A stretch of DNA of 64,000 nt from Loktanella sp. 3ANDIMAR09 (GTDB lineage: Bacteria; Pseudomonadota; Alphaproteobacteria; Rhodobacterales; Rhodobacteraceae): the NCBI RefSeq assembly GCF_001420005.1, contig NZ_LJAK01000003.1:248001-312000 (forward strand), in the 5' to 3' direction. Positions 1,854 to 15,091 of the stretch are shown in pieces. The stretch's first letter is position 1. Every line of letters begins with the position of its first letter. The notes below the pieces were generated by a model. That model did not search any database, was not told the DNA's origin, and saw only the letters and a program-made list of their open reading frames with translations. Both the position numbers and the translations under genes were made by a program.

Positions 1854-2930
1854 CTATTCCACCGTCAGGCCGATGAAAGGACGCACGGTTTCGCCCTCTG
1901 TCAGCATTTGCAGTCCGGCGGCCACGATCTGCGTGTCGCCCGCGATGCCGCTGACCAGCAGGTCCGTCCCGTTCGGAGAGCTGACCTCGACCGGTTGCCA
2001 GGCCACGGTTCCGTCGGTGCCGCCGGGGTTCGGCGTATAGACCAGAACGCGGGGCGATCCGCTGTCATAGGACACCGCTGACGGCGGCAACATCACCAGG
2101 CTTTCGTCCCCCAATGGCAGGGTCGCCGTCACGGTGATGGACGCGCCCGGAATGATTGCCTGTGGCACGTCGTCCTGCGTCAGGGCCAATGTGACCCGAT
2201 AGCTTTGCCCGATGTTCTGGGTTTCGGCGTTGAATTCGCGCAACTCCAGCGGGACGGGTGCGTCAAACAGCGGGGACGACCCGGTAAATTTCAGATCGCT
2301 GCCTTCGTCGACATTCTGGAACAGGCGTTCCGGCACGTCGATTTCGACGCGGACCTCTGACATGTCGTGCAGGCGGACAATGGGCTGACCGGGGCTGACG
2401 ATGGCAAAATTCGGTGTCAGGCGCGAGGCGACCAATGCCTCGAACGGGGCGTGCAGACTGGCATTCGCCAGCGCATCCTCCGCCTCGCGCAGGGCGACGG
2501 CAGCCAGATCGCGTGCGGTCTGGGCATCCTCTGCCTGTGTGGCCGACACAGCGTTCGTTGCCGCCAGCGTTTCGGCGCGGTTCAAGGCGCGTTCGGCCTG
2601 CGTCAGGTTGATCTGTGCCCGTTCCACCGCCCGTTCGAATGGGCCTACGTCCAGTGCTGCGATCTGCACGTCCTTTTGCAGGAACTGGCCCTCTTGGGCG
2701 TCGAACATGGTCATCTGCCCGCCGACCTCGAATGACAGATCGACCGTTTCCAAGGCGACCACCTGGCCAAAGAACGTCCTGTCCGTCAGTACGCTTTCGC
2801 CGGCGGCCCTGATCAGTTTCACAGCCCTCATCGGGGCGGGATCACCCGACGGTGTCAGTGTCTCGGCCTCTTGTGCGGACAATGGGACAGCGGCAGAAAG
2901 AGCAATCAGGACCGTGGCAATGCGAAGCAT
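1854..2930 (-). CDS. RND efflux periplasmic adaptor (membrane fusion protein)
   Basis: A 358-residue HlyD/AcrA-type adaptor that would link the inner-membrane pump to an outer-membrane channel. It begins with a Sec signal peptide (MLRIATVLIALSAAVPLSAQ). A lipoyl/barrel-sandwich half follows (FEVGGQMTMFDAQEGQFLQ), then an Ala/Glu/Arg-rich alpha-helical hairpin at about residues 110-165, the second barrel half, and a beta-barrel region. No lipobox cysteine follows the signal peptide, so it is probably soluble or anchored only through the pump. It is the first gene of the minus-strand pump operon. No outer-membrane factor gene is visible, so that partner is elsewhere. Confidence 0.93.
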   Translation of the reverse strand: MLRIATVLIALSAAVPLSAQEAETLTPSGDPAPMRAVKLIRAAGESVLTDRTFFGQVVALETVDLSFEVGGQMTMFDAQEGQFLQKDVQIAALDVGPFERAVERAQINLTQAERALNRAETLAATNAVSATQAEDAQTARDLAAVALREAEDALANASLHAPFEALVASRLTPNFAIVSPGQPIVRLHDMSEVRVEIDVPERLFQNVDEGSDLKFTGSSPLFDAPVPLELREFNAETQNIGQSYRVTLALTQDDVPQAIIPGASITVTATLPLGDESLVMLPPSAVSYDSGSPRVLVYTPNPGGTDGTVAWQPVEVSSPNGTDLLVSGIAGDTQIVAAGLQMLTEGETVRPFIGLTVE

Positions 2931-3036
2931 ATATAAATTCCATCGTAGAGTACGGCGTGGTACTTAACCCATCATGAGGCAGTGGCAAGGGGGAAGCTCT
3001 GTCTCATTTTGCCGTGAGGTTCCCACTTTCAATTCT

Positions 3037-3053
3037 GGTAGGCGCACCCTACC
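3037..3053. promoter_or_regulatory. Candidate TetR operator (inverted repeat)
   Basis: A perfect 6-bp inverted repeat, GGTAGG-CGCAC-CCTACC, ends 8 bases before the tetR ATG. It lies in the 131-bp divergent region between the efflux operon and its probable regulator. TetR proteins typically bind short palindromes placed this way and repress both directions. Binding is inferred from position and symmetry only. Confidence 0.45.
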
Positions 3054-3061
3054 GTTCAGTC

Positions 3062-3655
3062 ATGACCCAAAATCCGTCACAGACCCGTATTCTGGCAGCC
3101 GCCCGAAGCCTGTTTTTCAAACATGGTTTCGAAAAGGTATCCACCGACATGCTGGCCCGCGAGGCCGCCGTATCCAAAGCGACGATCTATCGCTACTATC
3201 AGAACATGACCGATCTGTTGGGCTGTGTCGCCACGGCAGAGGTCTGCCGGTTTCGCGACGCAAACCCACCGGCGGTCACGTCACGGGCTGAATTGCACGC
3301 GGGGCTGACTGCCTTTGGTACCCGGTTGCTGACCTTTCTCAATGATCCCGAAACCGTGGCTTTCGCTTGTCTGATCCACGAAGAGGCGCGTCATGCCCCC
3401 GACATGGGCGTGACATTCTACGATGCTGCGTTTCAGCAGACGTTGGATGATCTGGCGCGGATGTTTGATCAGGCCAAGGACTGCGGTGCACTGAAAACTG
3501 AATTCGCACCACAAGAGATTGCCGAGGATTTCATCGCCTTGCTCGAAGGGCAGGGGCTCAAGCGGGCGCAATTGGGCCTTTCTGGCCTGCCCTATCCGGA
3601 TGTGCCCGGAAAGGTGAACCGCGCGGTCACCACCCTGTTGCGGGCGCACGGTTAG
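3062..3655 (+). CDS. TetR/AcrR family transcriptional regulator
   Basis: A 197-residue one-component repressor. The N-terminal TetR helix-turn-helix is clear: TRILAAARSLFFKHGFEKVS, then DMLAREAAVSKATIYRYY as the DNA-contacting part. The C-terminal two-thirds is a helical ligand-binding domain with no recognisable specificity. I chose the ATG at 3062 over an in-frame codon 48 bases upstream because MTQNPSQTR gives the usual short lead before the first helix and places the palindrome at 3037-3053 outside the gene. It is divergent from the RND operon, so it most likely controls that pump and itself. Confidence 0.92.
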   Translation: MTQNPSQTRILAAARSLFFKHGFEKVSTDMLAREAAVSKATIYRYYQNMTDLLGCVATAEVCRFRDANPPAVTSRAELHAGLTAFGTRLLTFLNDPETVAFACLIHEEARHAPDMGVTFYDAAFQQTLDDLARMFDQAKDCGALKTEFAPQEIAEDFIALLEGQGLKRAQLGLSGLPYPDVPGKVNRAVTTLLRAHG

Positions 3656-3692: not shown

Positions 3693-3851
3693 TCACATGC
3701 GGCGCCAGGCCAGGTAGGCTGCCAGCGCGATGATACCGCCCATCAGCGACAGTGGAATTTCCATCCCATGCGGATGGATATGTGCGCCGCCATGGGCCAG
3801 CGCGGGCGAGGCCGCCAAAATCGCGGCAATCGTCAGTGACAGGTGTTTCAT
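3693..3851 (-). CDS. 52-residue histidine-containing membrane peptide, last gene of the guanidine operon
   Basis: A small gene whose ATG overlaps the TGA of the preceding histidine-rich gene (ATGA), a strong sign of translational coupling. The product starts with a signal-like segment (MKHLSLTIAAILAASPALA). It continues with a short metal-ligand-like stretch, HGGAHIHPHG, and ends in a hydrophobic helix closed by positive charges (GGIIALAAYLAWRRM). This leader-His motif-single helix layout resembles small DUF6732-like proteins common in Rhodobacteraceae; that comparison is from memory. The likely topology is a periplasmic histidine loop anchored in the inner membrane. Function is unknown; binding of nickel or another metal for the neighbouring enzyme is an inference from context. 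Confidence 0.7.
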   Translation of the reverse strand: MKHLSLTIAAILAASPALAHGGAHIHPHGMEIPLSLMGGIIALAAYLAWRRM

Positions 3852-4306
3852 GCGTCTATTTCCTTTTTGCGTTGGGATAGAAAATCGCGGATGTCCAAGA
3901 CCGATTTTTCATCCATCGAGACATAGATCAAGGACATGTTGGTGCGTTCCGTCACCATCTGGCCGGGGAACGGCAGATAGCTCAGTTCGCGTGATCCGAA
4001 TGAAGGTGATGCCGTTCCGACCTGCCATTCGGTTTTCAATTCCACGTCGATCAGTTTCAGCGCCTTGGGTCCTGCGGCGGCGGGGCGTTCAAACGGCACG
4101 CCCGCCAGCTTGAGGTAGGCCGCCTTGTCGCGGGCCTGCACGTAGCCGTCGATGAACTGCGCGGTCAGGACCTGCAGGTCCGCAGCCGCGTCGTGTTCAT
4201 GCATGTGGCTATGCAGGTGGTCGCCATGCGCGTGGTTATGGCCATGGCCATGGGGCGCGTGATCGTGGTGGTGATGGTGCCCGTCCGGGCCGTGATCATG
4301 TGGCAT
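3848..4306 (-). CDS. Histidine-rich protein, putative metal-handling partner of the guanidine hydrolase
   Basis: A 152-residue cytoplasmic-looking protein with no signal peptide or membrane helix. Residues 1-39 hold 18 histidines, many as HG, HD or HHHHH runs, a composition known from nickel and zinc storage or delivery proteins such as HypB and UreE tails. Residues 40-152 form an ordinary mixed-charge domain (AADLQVLTAQFIDGYVQARD near its start, ending LSQRKKEIDA) that I do not recognise. Its ATG overlaps the ureohydrolase gene by 11 bases and its stop overlaps the next ATG, so it belongs firmly to this operon. Guanidine hydrolases need nickel, so metallochaperone or nickel store is the best guess. 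It contains no GTPase motif and no HypA-type zinc site. Confidence 0.8.
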   Translation of the reverse strand: MPHDHGPDGHHHHHDHAPHGHGHNHAHGDHLHSHMHEHDAAADLQVLTAQFIDGYVQARDKAAYLKLAGVPFERPAAAGPKALKLIDVELKTEWQVGTASPSFGSRELSYLPFPGQMVTERTNMSLIYVSMDEKSVLDIRDFLSQRKKEIDA

Positions 4307-5561
4307 TGGACCACCTCTTGCCGCTGAATTCGCCGTGCGGAATGGAAACGGGTTTGTCGATATGCTGTTTATGCGCGCCCATTTTGCCGCTGGCGACCAT
4401 GGACCCCAGCACATCGACGATCACGCGCGTGCCCAGCAGCGCCGTGATGTCCGACGTGTCATAGGGGGGCGATACCTCGACCAGTTCCATCCCGCAAATC
4501 CCCTCGGCCGCGATGCCGGAGACCAGCGCCAGTGCCTCGCGCGGCAGGAACCCGCCGGGTTCGGGCCAGCCGGTGCCGGGCACGAAACCGCAGTCGATGC
4601 TGTCGATGTCGAACGACAGATAGACCATGTCCACGCCGTCCCAGGCCATGTCCAGCGCCATTTCCAGCGTCTTGTCGATCCCCATCTTTTCAACGTCGCC
4701 CATGGTGATGATGTTGGTCTCGCGTTCCCGCGCGACCTTGACCGCCTCGCGCGGGACCTGCCAGCCGCCGATGCCGATCTGCACAAGGTTCTTGGCCGAC
4801 ACATTGGGCATGTTGGTCGCGTGGAACCACGGCGTGGTATGCATCCGTTCGTCCAGGTCCTTTTCCTGAATGTCGGCGTGACGGTCGAAATGCACGATGC
4901 CGATTTTCTTGGACGTGCATTCCGCGATGCCGCGCAGGCAAGGGTAGCCGATGGAATGGTCGCCACCGATCATGATGGGCAGCGAGCCGGAGCTGAACAC
5001 ATGGCTGACACCACGGCTGATCTGGTCGAATGATTTCTCGATATTCGCCGGGATCGTGAATACGTCGCCCGCGTCGCACAGCGTCATCTGTTCGCGCAGA
5101 TCGACGCCCATTTCGTAGTTATAGGGCGTGTACAGCGCCGAGATCTTGCGCAGTGCCTGCGGTCCGAACCGGGTGCCGGGACGGTAGGTCGTGCCACCGT
5201 CAAAGGGGATGCCAAGGATCGTGGCGTCGTAGTTCGCCACCTCCAGCACGTCCTCGGCATAGGGGGCCTTGAGGAACGTGTTGATCCCGGCGAAATGCGG
5301 CAGCTCTCCGCGGGCGAATGTCGGGATGGATTTGTCCTCGATCGCGTCGGCCCCGGTCAGACCCATGCGCAGCGCCCAGCGGCGTTCCTCGTCGGCGCGG
5401 CCGGTGGGGATGTCGCCCTCTTTCTCCATGGCCTTCCAGCCTTGTAGCTGGGTCAGGTCCGGATGGTGCTGGCGTCTGCCCTGCGCGTTGATCCGCTGGG
5501 CCAGATCGCGGGGATGGTGCGACCGGCTGCGCCTGGCTTGGGGGCCTGTATCAGGAAACAT
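4296..5561 (-). CDS. gdmH: Ureohydrolase-family guanidine hydrolase (agmatinase-like)
   Basis: A 421-residue manganese/nickel-type ureohydrolase predicted to split guanidine into urea and ammonia. Metal motifs are present: GGDHS at 199-203, DRHAD at 226-230 and SFDIDSID at 316-323. They are followed by GTGWPEPGG at 329-337; agmatinases and arginases usually have Thr or Ser where Trp332 stands, and a Trp here is, as I recall, typical of the guanidine-specific Synechocystis enzyme Sll1077. GTTYRP at 123-128 lies in the substrate region. A roughly 100-residue N-terminal extension, absent from ordinary agmatinases, also matches that subgroup. The start overlaps the ATPase gene by 11 bases. The operon follows a guanidine riboswitch, which supports guanidine rather than agmatine. 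Confidence 0.85.
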   Translation of the reverse strand: MFPDTGPQARRSRSHHPRDLAQRINAQGRRQHHPDLTQLQGWKAMEKEGDIPTGRADEERRWALRMGLTGADAIEDKSIPTFARGELPHFAGINTFLKAPYAEDVLEVANYDATILGIPFDGGTTYRPGTRFGPQALRKISALYTPYNYEMGVDLREQMTLCDAGDVFTIPANIEKSFDQISRGVSHVFSSGSLPIMIGGDHSIGYPCLRGIAECTSKKIGIVHFDRHADIQEKDLDERMHTTPWFHATNMPNVSAKNLVQIGIGGWQVPREAVKVARERETNIITMGDVEKMGIDKTLEMALDMAWDGVDMVYLSFDIDSIDCGFVPGTGWPEPGGFLPREALALVSGIAAEGICGMELVEVSPPYDTSDITALLGTRVIVDVLGSMVASGKMGAHKQHIDKPVSIPHGEFSGKRWSNAT

Positions 5562-6309
5562 GGGTGTCCTCCGTTTGGATTTGGTGGGGAATGCCGCCGT
5601 TGCGGGCGTCAAAGTCGTAGGTGATCGTGGCCCCGAACAGACCCGGATCGTGCGGGTCCCAGCGGGGTTTATCAAAGACCAGCACACGGTCGCCCAGCTT
5701 GAACCCCTCTTCGAGGTCGTGGGTCACCATGAACACGGTCATGTTGGTCAGCGCGCGCAACTCCATCAGGAAGGCGTGCATTTGCAGGCGCGTGCCGGGG
5801 TCAAGCGCGCCGAATGGTTCGTCCAGCAGCAAGACGCGCGGCTTTGCGGTCATCGCCTGACCGATCGCCAGTCGCTGCTGCATACCGCCCGAAAGGGATG
5901 CGGGATATTGGTCGGCCACGTGGTTCAAACCGATCCGCACCAGCATTTCATCCGCGTCCTGCATCGCCTGACGCCGTGCCGCACCGCGCAGGTAACCGAA
6001 CCGCGTCTTGAACGCGGTGCCAGCCATCAGGTTGTCGCGCACGGTCAGATGCGGGAACACGGAATAGCGCTGGAACACCACGCCGCGCTCTACGTTCGGC
6101 TCGACCGCAGGCGGCCCGCCATCAATGCTGATCTCGCCGCGTGTGGGGCGTTCCTGCGCCAACAAGAGCCGCAGAAAGGTGGATTTTCCACAGCCAGAGG
6201 CACCCACGATGGAAATGAATTCGCCCTGATCGACCTCGACGTTGACCCGTTCGATGATCGACCGGTCACCGTAGGCCTGCCAGATGTTGCGGACGCTGAC
6301 AAAGCTCAT
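5551..6309 (-). CDS. ABC transporter ATPase, NitT/TauT type (guanidine import)
   Basis: A 252-residue nucleotide-binding subunit powering the importer made with the two upstream genes. It has Walker A GASGCGKST, the signature LSGGMQQR, Walker B LLLDEPFGALD and the H-loop VTHD, the full set of a nitrate/taurine-type ATPase. The C-terminal tail after residue 220 (WDPHDPGLFGATITYDFDAR) is longer than in simple TauB proteins. Its ATG overlaps the permease stop by 4 bases (ATGA), and its own end overlaps the hydrolase start, so all are co-translated. Guanidine as substrate is inferred from the riboswitch and the hydrolase. Confidence 0.92.
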   Translation of the reverse strand: MSFVSVRNIWQAYGDRSIIERVNVEVDQGEFISIVGASGCGKSTFLRLLLAQERPTRGEISIDGGPPAVEPNVERGVVFQRYSVFPHLTVRDNLMAGTAFKTRFGYLRGAARRQAMQDADEMLVRIGLNHVADQYPASLSGGMQQRLAIGQAMTAKPRVLLLDEPFGALDPGTRLQMHAFLMELRALTNMTVFMVTHDLEEGFKLGDRVLVFDKPRWDPHDPGLFGATITYDFDARNGGIPHQIQTEDTHVS

Positions 6310-7118
6310 AGCCCGGCCTCCAGCCATGGAAATGCCCGGCGGGACAGCGTTTTCAGCGCCCAGTCGATGAGGAACGCCAGCAGCGTGATCCAGATGACGT
6401 AGGTCAGAATAATGTCCATCGCGAGGTAGCGACGCACCAGAAAAATCCGGTAGCCAAGGCCCACATCCGACGCCACAGCCTCGGCCGCGATCAGGAACAG
6501 CCAGGCTGACCCCAGCGACAGGCGCACGTTTGCAATCAGGCGCGGCAGGATTTGCGGCAGTGTCACGCGCAGGGCGATGACCAGCGACGATGCGCCAATG
6601 GTCTGCGCCTTGATCAATTGTTCCGTGGGAATATCCAGCACGCGCTGTGACAGGTCGCGGATCATGAACGGCGTGATGCCTATGATGATCAACACGACCT
6701 TTGACAGCTCGCCCAGTCCGAATACGATGAACAGGATCGGCAGCAGCGCCAGCGGCGGCACCATCGACACCACGGCGACAAAACTGGAAAAACCGGACCT
6801 GATGACTGGCAACAGCCCAATCGCCATGCCGACACCCAGCGAGATAGCGGCCGAAATGCCGACACCCAGCAGCAGGCGCTGCAATGAGGCCCATGTATCC
6901 TGCCACAACAGGATGTCACCACTGCGACGGTCGGCCTCTGTGAACAGCCGGATCGCGGTGTCCAGGATCGTGGCAGGTGCCGGCAGCAGTTTGTCATTCG
7001 GGTTGGCCGTCAGCCGGATGTCCGAACTGATCGCATAGGCAATCATCACCGCGATGAATGGCAGCGCGGCAAGCAGTATGCCGCTGCGGCGCGATGGGAT
7101 ACGGTTGATCAGTCGCAT
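6306..7118 (-). CDS. ABC transporter permease, NitT/TauT type (guanidine import)
   Basis: A 270-residue integral membrane subunit with about six helices. The binding-protein-dependent transport EAA loop, which docks on the ATPase, lies at about residues 165-190 (EQLIKAQTIGASSLVIALR). The pattern fits the urea carboxylase-associated/NitT family that is often preceded by guanidine riboswitches. A GC-rich stem-loop separates it from the binding-protein gene upstream. It is followed by the ATPase with a 4-base overlap. It should form the inner-membrane channel as a homodimer. Confidence 0.92.
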   Translation of the reverse strand: MRLINRIPSRRSGILLAALPFIAVMIAYAISSDIRLTANPNDKLLPAPATILDTAIRLFTEADRRSGDILLWQDTWASLQRLLLGVGISAAISLGVGMAIGLLPVIRSGFSSFVAVVSMVPPLALLPILFIVFGLGELSKVVLIIIGITPFMIRDLSQRVLDIPTEQLIKAQTIGASSLVIALRVTLPQILPRLIANVRLSLGSAWLFLIAAEAVASDVGLGYRIFLVRRYLAMDIILTYVIWITLLAFLIDWALKTLSRRAFPWLEAGL

Positions 7119-7161
7119 GACAAGCCTCCGGTCAGGGGACGCATGAATGACGGGAATTGGG

Positions 7162-7187
7162 GGCGCGCGACGCGGTCGCCGCGCGCC
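7162..7187 (-). other. Intercistronic stem-loop between binding protein and permease genes
   Basis: GGCGCGCG at 7162-7169 pairs with CGCGCGCC at 7180-7187, with an inner GAC/GTC pairing. It lies in the 75-bp gap after the binding-protein stop. Such structures commonly protect the binding-protein mRNA or attenuate readthrough, giving more binding protein than membrane parts. No T-run follows. Confidence 0.5.
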
Positions 7188-7193
7188 AGAGGC

Positions 7194-8261
7194 TTACAGC
7201 GCGCCGTCGGCGGCCATCTGCATGTAGGTTGTGTCGAACCGGAACATGACGTTATCCGCGTCCCCCGTCACCACGTCACCCGGATAGGCGATGCCCACGA
7301 AATCGGCGCTGGGCGCGTTCACACCCAAAATGCCCTTGTCGAACAGGAATTCCGCAACCGTCGTCATCGTGGTCGGCAGATCGGGCGACGCGGCCTGTGC
7401 GACGGCATCGGCAGGATCATAGAACATCTCTGTCACGGCCAGCTGCGCCTGATACCCGGCCAGATCGGTGCCCGCTGCCTCTGCCATGGCGGTCAACGCC
7501 TCTTCGTCACCAGCGGCCATCAGGCCCATGACTTCGTACCAGGCACCGACCACGGCCTTGCCGAAATCGGGGTTGTCGGCCAGCGTCTGCGTGTTCACCA
7601 CCATCAGGTCGAGGATTTCACCGGGAATTTGCGAGCTGTCGAACAGCACGTTGGCATCGGGGTTCGATGCCGTGATTTCGGACACCAGCGGGTTCCATGT
7701 GACGACGGCGCTGACGTCGTCGGTCGCATAGGCCGCGATCATATCCGCGTCGGATGTGTTGATGACACCGTCCAGATCGGATTCCGACAGGCCGACCGTA
7801 TCCAGCCCCCGCGCCAGCAGGTAATGCGACACCGACAGTTCCACCAGATTGACCGGCTTGCCTGCAAGATCCTCCAGCGTGCCTTCGCCCTTGAGGATCA
7901 CCGCATCGTTGCCGTTGGAATAGTCACCGATGATCAGGGCCGTTGTATCGACGCCGCCGCCCGCGGGGATCGACAGCGTGTCCATGTTGGTGGCGCTGAC
8001 CCCGTCAAAGGCACCTGCCGTGTACTGGTTGATGGATTCGACATAGTCGTTGATCTGTACGATCTCGACCGTGATGCCGTATTTTTCGGCCCATTTGTCC
8101 ATGATCCCGCTGTCGGACAGATAACCCCAGGGCATCCAGCCCGCGTAGATCGACCATGCCAGTTTGAAATCTGTTTTTTCCTGCGCCAGTGCAGGCTGCG
8201 CCATCGCAGTCGCCAGTCCGGCCGAGAGCGCCGCAGCGGATAGAATGTTCTTGAATGTCAT
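7194..8261 (-). CDS. ABC transporter substrate-binding protein (guanidine/urea-type, NitT/TauT family)
   Basis: A 355-residue periplasmic solute receptor. The ATG at 8261 starts a clear Sec signal (MTFKNILSAAALSAGLATAM, cleavage probably after ALAQ near residue 27). The mature protein begins KTDFKLAWSIYAGWMPWGYL; this aromatic-rich opening is typical of the NitT/TauT receptors annotated as putative urea or urea carboxylase-associated binding proteins. It is the first gene after the riboswitch, 89 bases downstream, with GGGGAAAG as probable ribosome-binding site. Such receptors downstream of guanidine-I riboswitches are likely guanidine receptors; specificity here is inferred. Confidence 0.9.
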   Translation of the reverse strand: MTFKNILSAAALSAGLATAMAQPALAQEKTDFKLAWSIYAGWMPWGYLSDSGIMDKWAEKYGITVEIVQINDYVESINQYTAGAFDGVSATNMDTLSIPAGGGVDTTALIIGDYSNGNDAVILKGEGTLEDLAGKPVNLVELSVSHYLLARGLDTVGLSESDLDGVINTSDADMIAAYATDDVSAVVTWNPLVSEITASNPDANVLFDSSQIPGEILDLMVVNTQTLADNPDFGKAVVGAWYEVMGLMAAGDEEALTAMAEAAGTDLAGYQAQLAVTEMFYDPADAVAQAASPDLPTTMTTVAEFLFDKGILGVNAPSADFVGIAYPGDVVTGDADNVMFRFDTTYMQMAADGAL

Positions 8262-8350
8262 GACTTTCCCCGTTGTGCGTCCCGCCTGTTGTCCAGATGG
8301 ATTTCGCCGCGCTGGCGGAACAAGAGACAAAGAGCGCGGCCAAAACCTGC
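8262..8350 (-). promoter_or_regulatory. Riboswitch expression platform with competing hairpins
   Basis: Between the aptamer and the ATG, GCCGCGCT (8340-8333 on the minus strand) can pair with AGCGCGGC (8313-8306). Alternatively GTTCCGCC, which lies in that hairpin's loop, can pair with the downstream GGCGGGAC. The two folds exclude each other. I see no stem followed by a T-run, so control of translation initiation or Rho-dependent termination seems likelier than an intrinsic terminator. Folding was done by eye. Confidence 0.4.
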
Positions 8351-8464
8351 GCAGTAGCCTCCCGGGATTTTGCCCCGCCGTGTGCCGCCCCGGAATTTGC
8401 CGGCGCGGTAGCTCTTCTTGGACCAGGCTTGTCGCGGGCGACAACGGAACCCTAAGTGCTCTGC
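8351..8464 (-). ncRNA. Guanidine-I riboswitch (ykkC/yxkD)
   Basis: Read on the minus strand, the leader holds the conserved blocks of the guanidine-I class in order: AGGGTTCCG, CTGGTCCAAGA, ACACGGCGGGG, then AAAATCCCGGGAGG. The closing P1 stem is present: GCAGAGC at 8464-8458 pairs with GCT-A-CTGC at 8358-8351, with one bulged A. Known members bind guanidinium and switch on exporters, carboxylases, hydrolases and importers. Here it precedes a binding-protein gene and so controls the whole guanidine operon. I matched it by eye; a covariance-model search should score it highly. Confidence 0.93.
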
Positions 8465-8723: not shown

Positions 8724-9398
8724 ATGGAACAGACACACGATTTCACGATGTGGAGCATGTTCGCGGACGCGACCATCCTCGTACAACTCGTCATGCTGGC
8801 ATTGGTCGCAGCCTCGGTCTGGTGCTGGGCGATCATCGTGGACAAGACGTTGCAATACCGCCGCGCCCGGCGCGAATCCGATGCCTTTGACGCGATGTTC
8901 TGGTCGGGCGAACCGCTGGATCAATTGTTCGACGACATCGGTGCCGCACCTCAGGGATCGGCTGAAACCATCTTTGCCGCGGGCATGACCGAATGGCGGC
9001 GCAGCCACAAACAGGACGGCGATCTGATCGCGGGCGCACAGGCACGGATCGACCGCAGCATGGATGTCGCCATCGCCAAGGAAGCGGCCAAACTGCAAAA
9101 GGGCCTTCCGGTGCTCGCGACAACCGGATCGACGGCCCCGTTCGTGGGCCTGTTCGGCACGGTGTTCGGGATCATGAATTCGTTCATCCAGATCGCGGAA
9201 TCCCAAAACACCAACCTGGCGGTCGTGGCCCCCGGTATCGCAGAGGCGCTCTTGGCCACGGGTCTTGGCCTGCTCGCGGCCATTCCGGCCGTTATCTATT
9301 ACAATAAGCTGAGTGCTGACGCCGACCGCATCATCGCCGGGTTCGAGGCCTTTGCCGACGAATTTTCCACCATCCTCAGCCGCCAGCTGGACAGCTGA
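8724..9398 (+). CDS. tolQ: Tol-Pal system protein TolQ
   Basis: A 224-residue inner-membrane ExbB/TolQ/MotA-type subunit that forms the proton channel with TolR and energises TolA. There are three helices: one near residues 13-35 (ILVQLVMLALVAASVWCWAI), and two late ones containing LATTGSTAPFVGLFGTVFGI and ALLATGLGLLAAIPAVIYYN, the conserved TolQ/ExbB signatures. The start fits the usual length of 225-235. tolR begins one base after the stop. First gene of the tol-pal cluster, which drives outer-membrane constriction at division. Confidence 0.96.
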   Translation: MEQTHDFTMWSMFADATILVQLVMLALVAASVWCWAIIVDKTLQYRRARRESDAFDAMFWSGEPLDQLFDDIGAAPQGSAETIFAAGMTEWRRSHKQDGDLIAGAQARIDRSMDVAIAKEAAKLQKGLPVLATTGSTAPFVGLFGTVFGIMNSFIQIAESQNTNLAVVAPGIAEALLATGLGLLAAIPAVIYYNKLSADADRIIAGFEAFADEFSTILSRQLDS

Positions 9399-9399
9399 C

Positions 9400-9876
9400 A
9401 TGGGGGCCGGTGTTCAGAAATCTGACGGAGGGGGCGGCGGGCGACGCGGGCGCCGCCGCAGTCGCGCCCAGCCGATGGCGGAAATCAACATCACGCCATT
9501 CGTGGACGTGATGCTGGTTTTGCTCATCATCTTCATGGTGGCCGCACCGCTGATGACCGTGGGCGTGCCGGTGGATCTGCCTGAAACGGCGGCCAACGCG
9601 CTGCCCAGCGACGACGAGGAACCACTGACCGTCACCATCGACGCATCCGGTGCGCTGTCGATCCAGAATACGCCCGTGGATCAGGCCGATCTGATCGCGC
9701 GCCTACAAGGCATTGCATCCGAAAGGGCCAGCGACCGCATCTTTCTGCGGGCCGACGGGGCCAACGACTGGAACCGTGTCGCACAGATCATGGGCGCGCT
9801 GAATGCGGCCGGGTTCAACAACATCGGTCTGGTGACGGATATCGGCGGGCCGGACCTGATGGGCACGGACGGCTGA
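9400..9876 (+). CDS. tolR: Tol-Pal system protein TolR
   Basis: A 158-residue ExbD/TolR protein. After a glycine/arginine-rich cytoplasmic tail (residues 1-27) comes MAEINITPFVDVMLVLLIIF, the single membrane helix with the proton-binding aspartate of the ITPFVDVMLVLL motif. A periplasmic domain follows. The ATG at 9400 directly follows the tolQ stop. The basic N-terminal tail is a little longer than in E. coli but usual for alphaproteobacteria. Confidence 0.95.
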   Translation: MGAGVQKSDGGGGGRRGRRRSRAQPMAEINITPFVDVMLVLLIIFMVAAPLMTVGVPVDLPETAANALPSDDEEPLTVTIDASGALSIQNTPVDQADLIARLQGIASERASDRIFLRADGANDWNRVAQIMGALNAAGFNNIGLVTDIGGPDLMGTDG

Positions 9877-9880
9877 TCCC

Positions 9881-11032
9881 ATGCAATGGACGCCCGGCAG
9901 CACGGTTTCGGCGGTGGGACACACGGCTCTCTTGATCTGGTTGATCGGGGGCTGGGGGTTTCAGGCTGACCCCATGCCGTTCGAGGTGTCGGACGTGTCC
10001 ATCGTGACCTCCGAGGAATATGCGGCCATCGTCAGCGCGACGACGCCGAACCCCAGTGACGTGGCCCCGGATGCGCCCGTGGCACCGCCCGTCGAACAGA
10101 CCCCGGATACGCCGTCCCCGGATGAGGTGCCGCCACCACCGCCGCCGCCGCCGCCGCCAGAGCCACCCGTGGCCGAGGCCCCGCCGCCGCCCGCACCCGA
10201 TGCGCTGCCAGTGCCGCCCGAAACGCAGGCACCCGTCGCAACCGGCCCGGTCCAGGACGAGGTGGTCGCCGCGCCGAACCTGAATGACGCACCACGCGCG
10301 ATCCCGCGTCCGTCCACCCGTGTCATGGCCCAGCCCGTTGCCCCGCCGCCGCCTGATGCGACCCCGGACGAGGTCGTGCGCCAGCAGGTCGCGCCCGAGG
10401 CCGCCCCCGATGCCCCGGTGGTCGAAGAAGCACAGGAAGAAACCGCGCCCGAAGAAGCGGTGACCGAAATCGTGACCGAGGCGGAAACACCCACAGGCCG
10501 CGTGACCGAGGCACCACGCCCGCCGCAACGCCCCAATCGCCCGACGCCCGCGCCCGAGGTCGAGCCCGAGGTGGAGGTCGCCGCGGAAACCCCGGCCCCC
10601 GCGCCGGAACCCGAACCCGATCCGGCCCCCCAGACGGACGAGGACGCGATTGCCGCGGCCCTTGCCGCGGCCGCCGCGGTGTCGGCCCCGGAACCGGATC
10701 TGGCACCCGGCCCGCCGATGACCGGTGCCGAACAAGAGGGTTTTCGCGTAGCGGTCAACGCCTGCTGGAACGTCGATCCCGGCTCTCAGGCGGCGATGGT
10801 GACGATGACGGTGGCATTCGATCTCGACCAATCTGGCCGTGTCACGGGTGACGTGCGGCAGGTCGGCGCGATGGGTGGCGACGCCAGTGCAACGGAAATC
10901 GCATTTCAGGCGGCCCGCCGCGCGATCCTGCGTTGTCAGGGGCAGGACGGCTATGATCTGCCTGCGGAAAAATACGACCAGTGGCGGGAGGTGGAAATCA
11001 CCTTTGACCCGTCGGGAATGCGGTTGCGGTAG
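9881..11032 (+). CDS. tolA: TolA-like energy transducer, proline-rich
   Basis: A 383-residue protein with one N-terminal helix (TALLIWLIGGWGF), a long Pro/Ala/Glu-rich periplasmic linker at about residues 60-280 including a run of ten prolines, and a C-terminal globular domain with two cysteines (VNACWNVD and ILRCQGQ) like TolA domain III. Position between tolR and tolB makes TolA near certain. Unlike E. coli TolA, whose domain II is an Ala/Lys/Glu helix, the linker here resembles that of TonB. It should span the periplasm to contact Pal/TolB. The stop is followed by a 102-bp gap before tolB. Confidence 0.88.
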   Translation: MQWTPGSTVSAVGHTALLIWLIGGWGFQADPMPFEVSDVSIVTSEEYAAIVSATTPNPSDVAPDAPVAPPVEQTPDTPSPDEVPPPPPPPPPPEPPVAEAPPPPAPDALPVPPETQAPVATGPVQDEVVAAPNLNDAPRAIPRPSTRVMAQPVAPPPPDATPDEVVRQQVAPEAAPDAPVVEEAQEETAPEEAVTEIVTEAETPTGRVTEAPRPPQRPNRPTPAPEVEPEVEVAAETPAPAPEPEPDPAPQTDEDAIAAALAAAAAVSAPEPDLAPGPPMTGAEQEGFRVAVNACWNVDPGSQAAMVTMTVAFDLDQSGRVTGDVRQVGAMGGDASATEIAFQAARRAILRCQGQDGYDLPAEKYDQWREVEITFDPSGMRLR

Positions 11033-11134
11033 GCGGGAAATCGCCAAGTCGTGATGGCGGTGATACGGTTGCGCTGTTAACCTGCGCAGAATGACGCAAA
11101 AGGGCGAAAAACGCCCGTGGTTGAGGGATTGGGT

Positions 11135-12466
11135 ATGACATTGAAGGCAGTTGTGATCGCAGGGCTGATGGCCATTGCATCAATCGGGCAGACCTTGCCG
11201 GCGCTGGCGCAATCCGGCCCGCTGCGGTTGACCATCACCGACGGCGTGATCGAACCGCTGCCCTTTGCGGTGCCGACTTTCACCGCCGAGACACCGGGCG
11301 CAGAGGCGCTTGCCGCCGATATCAGCGGGCTGGTCGCGCAGGACCTGACCGGCACGGGGCTGTTTCGCGAAATCCCCGCCAGCGCCTATATCAGCCAGCT
11401 GGGTCCCTTTGGCACGCCGCCTGCATACCCCGACTGGCGCGCGATCAACGCACAGGCCGTCATCGCCGGGGCCGTTGCGGTCAACGGATCGCAGCTGACG
11501 GTGAAATTCCGTCTCTATGACATCTTTACCGGTGCCGAACTGGGACAGGGCCTGCAATTTGCCGGCACGACCCAGGGCTGGCGCCGCATGGCGCACAAGG
11601 TCGCCGATGCTGCCTATTCCCGCATCACGGGCGAGTCCGGCTATTTCGACAGCCGCGTCGTTTTCGTAAGCGAGGCAGGCCCCAAGGACAACCGCCTGAA
11701 ACGTCTTGCGATCATGGATTACGACGGGGCGAACGTGCAGTTTCTGACCGACAGTTCGTCGCTGGTGCTGGCCCCCCGGTTTTCGCCCAACGGTGACCGT
11801 GTCCTCTATACCAGCTACGAATCGGGCTTTCCCCGGATCAACATTCTCGACGTGGGTTCTGTTTCGCAGCGACAATTGCCGACGGCCCCCGGCGAAATGG
11901 CATTCAGCCCCCGGTTTTCGCGTGACGGCAGCCGGGTGATCTACAGTCTTGCGAATGGCGGCAATACTGATCTGTATATCGGTGACATCGGCAGCGGGGC
12001 CTCGACCCGCCTGACCAGCGCACCGTCGATCGAAACCGCCCCCAGCTTCAGCCCCGACGGCAGCCAGATCGTGTTCGAGAGCGACCGGTCCGGTGGCAGC
12101 CAACTGTACATCATGTCCGCAAACGGTGGCGAACCGCGCCGCATCAGCTTTGGCGACGGGCGCTATGGCACACCTGTCTGGTCGCCACGTGGTGATCTCG
12201 TGGCCTTTACCAAGCAGAACGCAGGCCGGTTCCACATCGGCGTGATGCGCACCGACGGATCAGAGGAACGTCTGCTGACCTCCAGTTTCCTCGACGAGGG
12301 GCCGACCTGGTCCCCGAATGGTCGCGTGCTGATGTTCACCCGCGAAACACAGGGCGCATCAGGCACCAGCCAGCTGTATTCGGTGGATATTTCCGGGCGA
12401 AACCTGAAACCCGTACCGTTGCAGGGCGGGGCATCAGACCCAGCCTGGGGCCCGCTGCAACCGTGA
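11135..12466 (+). CDS. tolB: Tol-Pal system beta-propeller protein TolB
   Basis: A 443-residue periplasmic protein. The signal peptide ([20 protein letters not shown], ending ALAQ near residue 26) is followed by a small N-terminal domain and then a six-bladed WD40-like propeller, seen as repeated FSPDG/FSPNG and SRDGSRV elements from about residue 200 onward. I preferred the ATG at 11135 to an earlier in-frame codon because it begins the signal peptide. TolB binds Pal and TolA. It is followed by pal after 65 bases. Confidence 0.96.
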
Positions 12467-12531
12467 TTCCCAAATACGCTGTCGCGTGATACCCTGCGAC
12501 CAAAGAGCGGTTCAAAAAGGACATTGAAACA

Positions 12532-13050
12532 ATGCACATCTTGACAAAAGTGGCCCTGATCGGCCTTGCGCTGGCGACATCTGCCTGCACGCGCCCGGAC
12601 CGTTTCGGCGGGATGGACCCGTTGACGGGCAGTGGCGTGGATGCCAATGCCGCAGGCACCGCGACCGGGGCCTCTGACCCGCGCAGCCCCGAATTCTTTC
12701 AGCAGACCATCGGGGACCGCGTGCTGTTCGTCGTCGACTCCAGTTCATTGACCCCGCAGGGCATTGCCACGCTGGACGGGCAGGCCGGCTGGTTGCAGAC
12801 CAACGCAGACTACCTCGCCATCATCGAAGGTCACGCCGACGAACAGGGCACACGCGAATACAACCTCGCATTGGGCGCGCGCCGCGCCAATGCGGTGCGC
12901 GAATACCTGATCTCGCGCGGGGTTTCGGCCAACCGCCTGCGGACCGTCAGCTATGGCAAGGAACGCCCGGTCGAGGTCTGCTCGAACGAGGCATGTTATG
13001 CCCAGAACCGCCGTGCTGTGACTGTCATCTCGATCGGACAGCTCAGCTGA
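12532..13050 (+). CDS. pal: Peptidoglycan-associated lipoprotein Pal
   Basis: A 172-residue outer-membrane lipoprotein. The lipobox LATSAC places the lipidated cysteine at residue 19. A flexible Gly/Ala/Asp-rich stretch leads to an OmpA-like peptidoglycan-binding domain with the conserved stretch EGHADEQGTREYNLALGARR. It anchors the outer membrane to the cell wall in concert with TolB. An AAAAAGGA ribosome-binding region precedes the ATG. The stop overlaps the ATG of cpoB by one base (TGATG). Confidence 0.97.
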   Translation: MHILTKVALIGLALATSACTRPDRFGGMDPLTGSGVDANAAGTATGASDPRSPEFFQQTIGDRVLFVVDSSSLTPQGIATLDGQAGWLQTNADYLAIIEGHADEQGTREYNLALGARRANAVREYLISRGVSANRLRTVSYGKERPVEVCSNEACYAQNRRAVTVISIGQLS

Positions 13051-13856
13051 TGCGGGCGCTGGCGTTTGTCCTCGCACTCGCCGCGGGTCCGGCGTTGGCG
13101 CAGGACGCGACCCTTGCCGACATCCGGCAGCAGTTGACCGTGCTTTACGGTGACATCGAGGCGCTGCGCGGTGAATTGTCGGCCAGCGGTGCGCTGTCGA
13201 CCGGCGTGACCGGCAGCACTCCGCTTGATCGTCTGAACGCGATCGAGGCCGAGTTGCAGCGCCTCACTTCCAAGACCGAAGAGCTGGAATTCCGGGTCAA
13301 CCGGATCACCGTGGACGGCACCAACCGTGTCGGTGATCTGGAATTCCGACTGTGCGAACTTGAACCGGCCTGTGACATCGCGCTGCTGGGCAATACGCCG
13401 TCACTGGGCGGCGTGGATTCGGCGGCGAATGTGCCGGTGCCTGCCGCACCCGTGGCGCAGGGCCCCGATCTTGCGCTGGGTGAACAGCAGGATTTCGAGG
13501 CCGCGCAACAGGCGCTGGCTGCGGGTGATTTTCAGGTGGCCGTTGATCGGCTGGCCGCCTTTGGTGCTACCTATCCCGGGTCACCGCTTGAGGTGCAGGC
13601 CAACATCGCACTGGGCCAGGCGCAGGCAGGGCTGGGACAGAACGGCGACGCGGCACGCGCCTATCTGGCGGCGTTTTCCGCAGAACCAGAGGGACCATTT
13701 GCACCCGAGGCGCTGTTCCGGCTGGGGCGTGCGCTGGGTGACGTGGGACAGATCCCCGATGCCTGCGTGACGCTGGCAGAGGTCGGCGTGCGGTTCCCCA
13801 ACAGCACCTATGTCGCCGAAGCGAACAGCGCACGCGGCCTGCTGGGATGCACCTGA
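13050..13856 (+). CDS. cpoB: Tol-Pal cell division coordinator CpoB (YbgF)
   Basis: A 268-residue periplasmic protein coupling outer-membrane constriction to wall synthesis. It has a signal peptide (MRALAFVLALAAGPALAQ), a coiled-coil region at about residues 20-100 rich in Leu/Glu/Arg (RLNAIEAELQRLTSKTEELE), and C-terminal TPR repeats (for example FEAAQQALAAGDFQVAVDRL). Typical length is 240-320. Coupled to pal by a one-base overlap, and its end overlaps tilS by 10 bases. Confidence 0.93.
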   Translation: MRALAFVLALAAGPALAQDATLADIRQQLTVLYGDIEALRGELSASGALSTGVTGSTPLDRLNAIEAELQRLTSKTEELEFRVNRITVDGTNRVGDLEFRLCELEPACDIALLGNTPSLGGVDSAANVPVPAAPVAQGPDLALGEQQDFEAAQQALAAGDFQVAVDRLAAFGATYPGSPLEVQANIALGQAQAGLGQNGDAARAYLAAFSAEPEGPFAPEALFRLGRALGDVGQIPDACVTLAEVGVRFPNSTYVAEANSARGLLGCT

Positions 13857-15091
13857 CAGGTCTGCCCGACCGCTTTGCCGGTGAAATGGGGCATTTGCTG
13901 GGACCTGATTTCCCGGATGCCATCGGCGTTGCCGTGTCAGGCGGTGGCGACAGCATGGCGCTGTTGCATCTGACGGCCGGTTGGGCGCGAATCTATGGTG
14001 TGGCGATGTCGGTCGTCACGGTCGATCACGGCCTGCGCGATGCCAGCGCATCAGAGGCCGCAATGGTCGCTGAGGAATGCGCAGGGCTTGGCGTTGCGCA
14101 CGACACCTTGCAGTGGAAATGGGACGGAAACGGCAACCTGCAGGATGCGGCCCGCAACGGCCGCCGGGCGCTGATCGGTGCCTGGGCGGAGGGCCGCCCG
14201 GTCCTGTTGGGGCATACCCGCGACGATCAGGCCGAAACGCTGCTGATGCGGCTCGCACGTGGATCAGGCGTCGACGGTCTCGCGGCGATGGCGGGGCTGC
14301 GTTGCGCGGGGGGCTGGCAGATCGTGCGACCGATGCTGCCCATGGGGCGTGACGAGTTGCGCCACTATCTCAGGGTTTTGAACATTCCCTTTGTCGATGA
14401 TCCAACCAATGACGATGCGACCTATGCGCGGGTCCGCATGCGACAGCTGATCGGGCAAGAGGGACTGGATACGGTGCGGTTGGCCGATACGGCGCAGGCC
14501 ATGGCGCGCGCGCGCGTGGCCTTGGCCGCGCGTGCGCATGATGCCGCAACCGCGATGATGCACCCGACGACGCAGGGATGCATTGCACTGGACCGCGACG
14601 GCCTGACCCGGATCGAGGCTGAAACGCAGTTGCGCATTCTGGCCGGTGCCATTGGCGCGGTGACGGGTGCCGTCTATCGGCCAAGGCTCTCTGCCCTGAC
14701 ACAGACTCTGGACAGGGTGCTGGCTGGCGGCACAACGACACTTCAAGGCGCAATCCTTGTGCCCAAGGGGGGGCACCTGTTCATCGCGCGCGAACATCAG
14801 GCCGTCGCGGATCATCAGGTGTCTGTCCAGAGTGGTGAATTGTGGGACGGGCGCTGGATGCCCGTCGGGCAGGACCTGTCAGGTGCTGTGCTGCGTGCGC
14901 TGGGGGCGGACGGATTGCAGCAGATCACGGTGCGGCCTGAGGACGCGGCCCCCCGCGCCTGCCTGCTGGGCCTGCCGTCGATCTGGGCTGATGATCGCCT
15001 TATCGCTTGTCCTGCCTTGAATTTCGGCACGGATGCCTGGCTCGAAGACCAGTTGCGCGGAAGTTTTCCGCAATCCCTCCTTGTGCATTGA
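13847..15091 (+). CDS. tilS: tRNA(Ile)-lysidine synthase
   Basis: A 414-residue enzyme that attaches lysine to C34 of the CAU-anticodon tRNA-Ile, changing it to read AUA. The PP-loop motif SGGGDS is at residues 31-36, followed by [12 protein letters not shown] and a [20 protein letters not shown] block, all diagnostic. The C-terminal region is divergent, as usual in alphaproteobacteria. It starts inside the end of cpoB, a 10-base overlap, and precedes ftsH, a very common tilS-ftsH pairing. Confidence 0.95.

Follow-up and report, generated by a model that had tools for sequence, protein, structure and literature searches.

Organization of the guanidine operon

The 64,000-nucleotide stretch of the Loktanella sp. 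3ANDIMAR09 genome analysed here (contig NZ_LJAK01000003.1, positions 248,001 to 312,000; hereafter the window) carries on its minus strand an operon that comprises, from 5' to 3', a guanidine-I riboswitch, genes for the binding protein, permease and ATPase of an ATP-binding cassette (ABC) importer, the guanidine hydrolase gene gdmH and two genes for histidine-rich proteins, named here hisR and hisTM. The riboswitch aptamer (8466-8357) matched the whole of RF00442 with 78.7 bits against a gathering score of 63 (E 2.5e-12) and reaches 2 bases past the end of the operon as delimited in an earlier note on this DNA. Scores of the importer proteins were 514.9 bits against TIGR03427 (cut-off 333.9) for the substrate-binding protein (8261-7194), 68.9 bits against PF00528 for the permease (7118-6306) and 114 bits against PF00005 for the ATPase (6309-5551). 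GdmH (5561-4296), a member of the ureohydrolase family (PF00491, 269 bits), is followed by HisR (4306-3848), a protein of 152 amino acids that consists of an N-terminal MPHD, a histidine tract and a conserved core, and by HisTM (3851-3693), which is 52 amino acids long with an apparent signal peptide, a histidine motif, one hydrophobic helix and a basic end. From the permease onward, the genes overlap by 4, 11, 11 and 4 bases. Each part of the arrangement described in the earlier note, i.e., a guanidine-I riboswitch at the head of a NitT/TauT-type importer, a guanidine hydrolase and two histidine-rich genes joined by short overlaps past the permease, was confirmed.

The best relatives of GdmH among solved structures were PDB 7esr and 7oi1 (540 bits) and 9fek (531 bits), while the next solved ureohydrolase scored 181 bits, which places the protein nearest to characterised guanidine hydrolases and far from other ureohydrolases. 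In the alignment with 7esr, 229 of 355 aligned columns (64.5%) were identical. We take 7esr and 7oi1 to be Synechocystis Sll1077 and 9fek to be the Nitrospira inopinata enzyme; the records themselves say 'agmatinase 2'. Hydrolysis of guanidine with nickel is a predicted activity of the host enzyme, its nickel dependence being presumed from that of its homologues. The NCBIfam label of TIGR03427 is that of a putative urea ABC transporter, urea binding protein. The ligand of the protein encoded here is probably guanidine and, because its gene stands behind a guanidine riboswitch, guanidine is suggested as the true ligand of many TIGR03427 members.

Association of HisR with gdmH

Co-occurrence of HisR with gdmH, which the earlier note had named as a check on its suggestion of a metal-loading role, was examined in samples of genomes drawn by the search tool. 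In the family sample (248 genomes of 247 genera; cut-offs E 1e-100 for gdmH and 0.001 for HisR), gdmH was present in 36 genomes and HisR in 39, including all 36 of the former. The three HisR matches without gdmH were a broken copy behind which a HisTM-like frame remains (genome G159, locus L101; gdmH not found in 13 kb) and two weak matches to the histidine-rich half of the protein (G045 and G050, E 9.5e-4 and 4.5e-4, respectively). The class sample (337 genomes) contained gdmH in 11 genomes and HisR in 13, i.e., the same 11 together with G371, in which a HisR fragment lies at locus L200 with no gdmH in 15 kb, and G320, in which a match of E 0.005 inside a long frame was judged by inspection to be noise. 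The broken copies of G159 and G371 look like remnants of lost operons. At the level of the phylum, gdmH was found in 5 of 329 genomes, all Alphaproteobacteria and 2 of them new, and HisR in 4 of 244 genomes, all 4 with gdmH. Thus, HisR was present in 48 of 48 distinct sampled alphaproteobacterial genomes with gdmH (36 + 10 + 2). Homologues situated mostly away from gdmH, which by the earlier note would have spoken against its reading, were looked for, and the only HisR relatives without gdmH were the two broken remnants.

The association extends to gene order. A scan for the HisR core in genome contigs of 84,980 species gave 218 relatives, and among the best 80 of these gdmH was upstream on the same strand in every case, with 41 to 551 bases between the end of the gdmH match and the HisR core; the closest named relative among these 80 was that of Loktanella sp. 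DSM 29012 (99% in the core). HisR followed gdmH in all 35 family genomes in which the locus was not split by a contig end, as it was in G098. The 12 class loci included nine with gdmH-HisR detected by tblastn and one more (L205) detected by profile, the other two being those of G371 and G320. The same order was noted on both Sinorhizobium fredii plasmids read, of five with gdmH. Outside Pseudomonadota, gdmH was encountered only on plasmid records, of which 7 of 11 were read.

The order binding protein, permease, ATPase, gdmH, HisR recurs in most family relatives. A riboswitch at gathering score was present in all 9 family loci scanned, of 36, and, beyond these, 10 of 14 alphaproteobacterial loci that carry both gdmH and HisR had one; of the four misses (L197, L198, L201 and L204), that of L201 is at a place near which the contig ends. 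Among the four actinobacterial gdmH loci read, one had the riboswitch. Linkage to the importer is looser than that between gdmH and HisR. Thus, in L096 and L097 other genes intervene and the importer is about 3 kb off, L159 has no importer match in 18 kb, and in L220, where riboswitch, gdmH and HisR are present, neither a binding protein nor a permease was matched over 17 kb, the sole ATPase match being 34% identical and more than 5 kb distant. By inspection, a Rieske-type oxygenase frame lies downstream of HisR in both L096 and L097, and a DUF1989/urea-carboxylase-associated-like frame in L096; a Rieske protein also stands beside the Synechococcus guanidinase cluster in the available text of PMC10119275. 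A different assembly was seen on a Rubrobacter indicoceani plasmid (L213), where a guanidine-I riboswitch and gdmH are accompanied by a sodium:solute symporter, i.e., an importer of another type, by formamidase and urease genes, and by no helper seen at the locus.

The HisTM pattern combines what looks like a signal peptide with a short motif such as AHxxxHxHPHG, a single hydrophobic helix and, as a rule, a basic end. It was found after HisR in 61 of the 80 loci, with an ATGA overlap in 56 of these, by criteria that were set after examples had been seen. The same scan at random places gave 0 hits in 1600 draws, a number that includes draws skipped because they fell less than 600 bases from the true place. 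Because HisTM is variable in sequence outside the shared pattern and is missing from 19 of the 80 loci by these criteria, it is at most auxiliary.

Sequence and predicted structure of HisR

HisR has no sequence relative in Pfam, NCBIfam or PDB, and a comparison of 18 members with family models likewise gave no relative, the single match being to an unrelated model (E 0.13). Homology to HypA was rejected (no PF01155 match, hhalign probability 0.8%), as was homology to UreE (hhalign probability 0.3%, no NCBIfam UreE match). In the one annotated NCBI record read (L219), HisR and HisTM are each a 'hypothetical protein'. A description of HisR was not found in the literature searched; a mention is possible in Funck 2022, Sinn 2021 and Nelson 2017.

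A search of 132 loci, the window included and some genomes represented twice, yielded 131 HisR homologues, the sole locus without one being that of G098 at its contig end. The core is conserved across subfamilies at identities down to 23%. MPHD was the start of 122 of the 131 homologues, and five others (L197, L217, L218, L220 and L221) have Met-His at the only ATG before the core. Among distinct sequences, 108 of 116 start with MPHD; residues 2-4 in these 108 are fixed by selection because starts were picked for the motif. Residue 5 is His in 92 of the 108, and residues 7-14 are each His in 53 to 77. Conservation of MPHD merely through overlap with the end of gdmH was ruled out, since 45 of the 52 loci in which HisR and gdmH do not overlap keep MPHD, a count in which the gap of L097 is too large because gdmH of that locus has an internal stop. 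As Met before Pro is normally removed, the mature N-terminus of HisR would be Pro-His-Asp.

Most members carry a histidine tract, with as many as 28 histidines. It has shrunk to 5, 4 and 1 histidines in L201, L202 and L203, respectively, with core and MPHD retained. The single histidine of L203 HisR is that of MPHD, and the adjoining gdmH frame is intact.

An AlphaFold2 model of HisR (mean predicted local distance difference test score 70.9, predicted template modelling score 0.54) has a confident alpha/beta core with helices at 40-57, 61-67 and 139-151 and strands at 73-76, 79-96, 118-129 and 134-138; its N-terminus is disordered, and residues 99-110 are weakly modelled. The segment of about 97-117 is strongly conserved yet weakly modelled, and would suit a partner-binding loop. 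A Foldseek search of the model against PDB gave no match at E 0.001 or below, the best being a COMM domain (E 0.24).

HypA, HypB and urease

The absence of a HypA/HypB-like helper, asserted for the locus in the earlier note, holds for the host genome (99.99% complete) at the thresholds applied. Thus, there was no HypA match (PF01155) and no HypB over the TIGR00073 cut-off of 121.2 bits; the best match, of 77.3 bits, is a neighbour of the urease genes and resembles UreG. By inspection, matches of HypB type in L197 and L202 (28-30%) were likewise taken for UreG. In the family sample, HypA was over cut-off in 44 of 248 genomes, and was not enriched in those with gdmH (9 of 36 versus 35 of 212 others, p 0.24). 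It was on another contig than gdmH in eight of these nine genomes and about 254 kb away in the ninth. The two HypA loci read resemble hydrogenase clusters. Supply of GdmH by a distant HypA was rejected, HypA being over cut-off in 9 of 36 family gdmH genomes and never near the gene.

The urease cluster of the host is on another contig than the guanidine operon and encodes a UreE-like protein with a histidine-rich tail of its own (220.8 bits, just under the cut-off of 237). Of the 35 other gdmH genomes in the family sample, six were tested for urease alpha, and all six had it. Thus, these cells are equipped to use urea derived from guanidine and to handle nickel.

Neighbouring genes

A Tol-Pal cluster (8724-15091, plus strand) adjoins the riboswitch in divergent orientation; TolQ, TolB and Pal were over NCBIfam cut-offs, and frames like TolR, TolA, YbgF and TilS were identified by inspection only. 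Downstream of the operon, at 1854-3655, is a gene for a resistance-nodulation-division (RND) efflux periplasmic adaptor (TIGR01730, 171.6 bits), divergent from a frame that by inspection resembles a TetR-like regulator.

Discussion

From these findings, HisR is probably a dedicated nickel metallochaperone for GdmH that replaces HypA and HypB. The N-terminal Xaa-His motif of HisR, which resembles that of HypA, is a further reason to suspect nickel. The operon as a whole would serve to scavenge guanidine nitrogen: guanidine would switch it on through the riboswitch and enter by the ABC importer, GdmH would split it to urea and ammonia, and the separately encoded urease would finish the urea. Within this scheme, the Pro-His-Asp end of HisR (Met-His in other subgroups) would offer an NH2-Xaa-His nickel site, the histidine tract would be a dispensable nickel reservoir, and the core would dock on GdmH, perhaps via the flexible segment of about 97-117, for delivery of the metal. 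HisTM may gather or pass nickel at the membrane, which is a guess. We hold it quite possible, with less conviction than for the chaperone role itself, that HisR represents a new, unrelated and GTPase-free family of alphaproteobacterial nickel chaperones in which one protein does the work of HypA plus HypB with a convergent NH2-Xaa-His-Asp site.

Known systems offer several points of comparison. Cyanobacterial guanidine operons carry hypA and hypB according to the available text of PMC8390497, PMC10119275 and PMC12186494. The Synechocystis operon, with gdmH sll1077, shares with the present one a guanidine-I riboswitch, a NitT/TauT-type importer and a GdmH 64.5% identical over 355 columns, but has hypA and hypB where HisR and HisTM, unrelated in sequence, are found here. 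Similarly, the metformin hydrolase operon combines a homologous nickel ureohydrolase with adjacent metal-handling genes, but MefH, in passages of PMC11399263, needs the products of hypA and hypB. The comammox bacterium Nitrospira inopinata resembles Loktanella in having GdmH and a riboswitch with no HypA/HypB nearby, and differs in its APC permease and in that, in the accessible parts of PMC11410670, nickel loading is described as unclear and no nickel chaperone was found.

With HypA, in which the N-terminal amine and His2 of an MHE terminus form the nickel site according to the passages available from PMC7055735, HisR would share an N-terminal Xaa-His motif with an acidic residue next to it (PHD in the predicted mature protein), but it has neither the zinc CXXC site nor any profile similarity. 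With UreE it would share the plan of a nickel-enzyme helper made of a core domain and a dispensable histidine-rich tail; this tail is C-terminal in UreE, as opposed to N-terminal in HisR, and here also there is no profile similarity. The same passages report that the histidine tail of Klebsiella UreE can be removed with urease activity kept, whereas that of SlyD is needed for hydrogenase. The likeness of HisR to HypA and UreE would be one of function only, with a defined metal site at the terminus, as in HypA, and a reservoir that is optional, as in Klebsiella UreE.

Histidine-rich storage proteins of the Hpn type are known, and the tract of most HisR proteins, with as many as 28 histidines, would suit a nickel store or sponge that is co-induced with a nickel enzyme and buffers the metal without delivering it. 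This we consider unlikely, given that L201-L203 have lost almost all of the tract and kept core and MPHD, that conservation of the core holds even at 23% identity and that HisR is tied to gdmH, not to urease. Strict pairing with gdmH and a strongly conserved core with its conserved flexible segment would fit a subunit with a structural or regulatory role in GdmH, the histidines being secondary. Such a subunit is also rather improbable, as it leaves the N-terminal histidine and the tract unexplained, and the enzymes behind 7esr/7oi1 and 9fek are not known to need a partner of this kind.

The choice of metal is a further issue, since Xaa-His motifs and histidine tracts bind several metals and the assignment of nickel to the host GdmH follows from homology. 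Delivery of cobalt, zinc or manganese to an alphaproteobacterial GdmH that uses that metal has, in our estimate, only a small chance of being correct, the enzyme being close to ones described as nickel-dependent. Finally, an operon shared with an ABC importer and the membrane-bound appearance of HisTM might point to a function of both proteins in guanidine or nickel transport rather than enzyme maturation. This is very improbable, because gdmH-HisR is kept where no importer match is nearby (L159 and L220) or where the importer is 3 kb off (L096 and L097).

Several observations weigh against HisR as a nickel chaperone for GdmH. Counts such as 48 of 48, and the p-value of 0.24 for HypA, ignore the relatedness of the genomes. 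In G194, HisR is intact while gdmH is broken by an internal stop, and in 4 of 4 actinobacterial gdmH loci read neither HisR nor HypA/HypB was found within 7 kb. In choosing HisR starts, those with PHD or H behind the ATG were favoured; the starts of L198, L204 and L205 (Met-His or GTG-His) are unsure, and L199 HisR is without an N-terminal motif. In addition, comammox GdmH made without chaperones was active and incompletely loaded in the part of PMC11410670 that is available, so a nickel chaperone may raise loading rather than be strictly needed. The earlier note had put both histidine-rich genes in the place of the helper: this is supported for HisR, which tracks gdmH in genomes and in all of the best 80 of 218 loci, and not for HisTM, which by the criteria used is absent from 19 of the 80.

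HisR offers a testable answer to how GdmH may be supplied with nickel in a group of marine and soil Alphaproteobacteria, with one conserved residue as a target for mutation. If true, it would add a metallochaperone without known sequence relative. HisR would also help to spot gdmH operons annotated as 'agmatinase' and 'urea transporter', and would be a possible co-expression partner for the production of fully loaded guanidine hydrolase.

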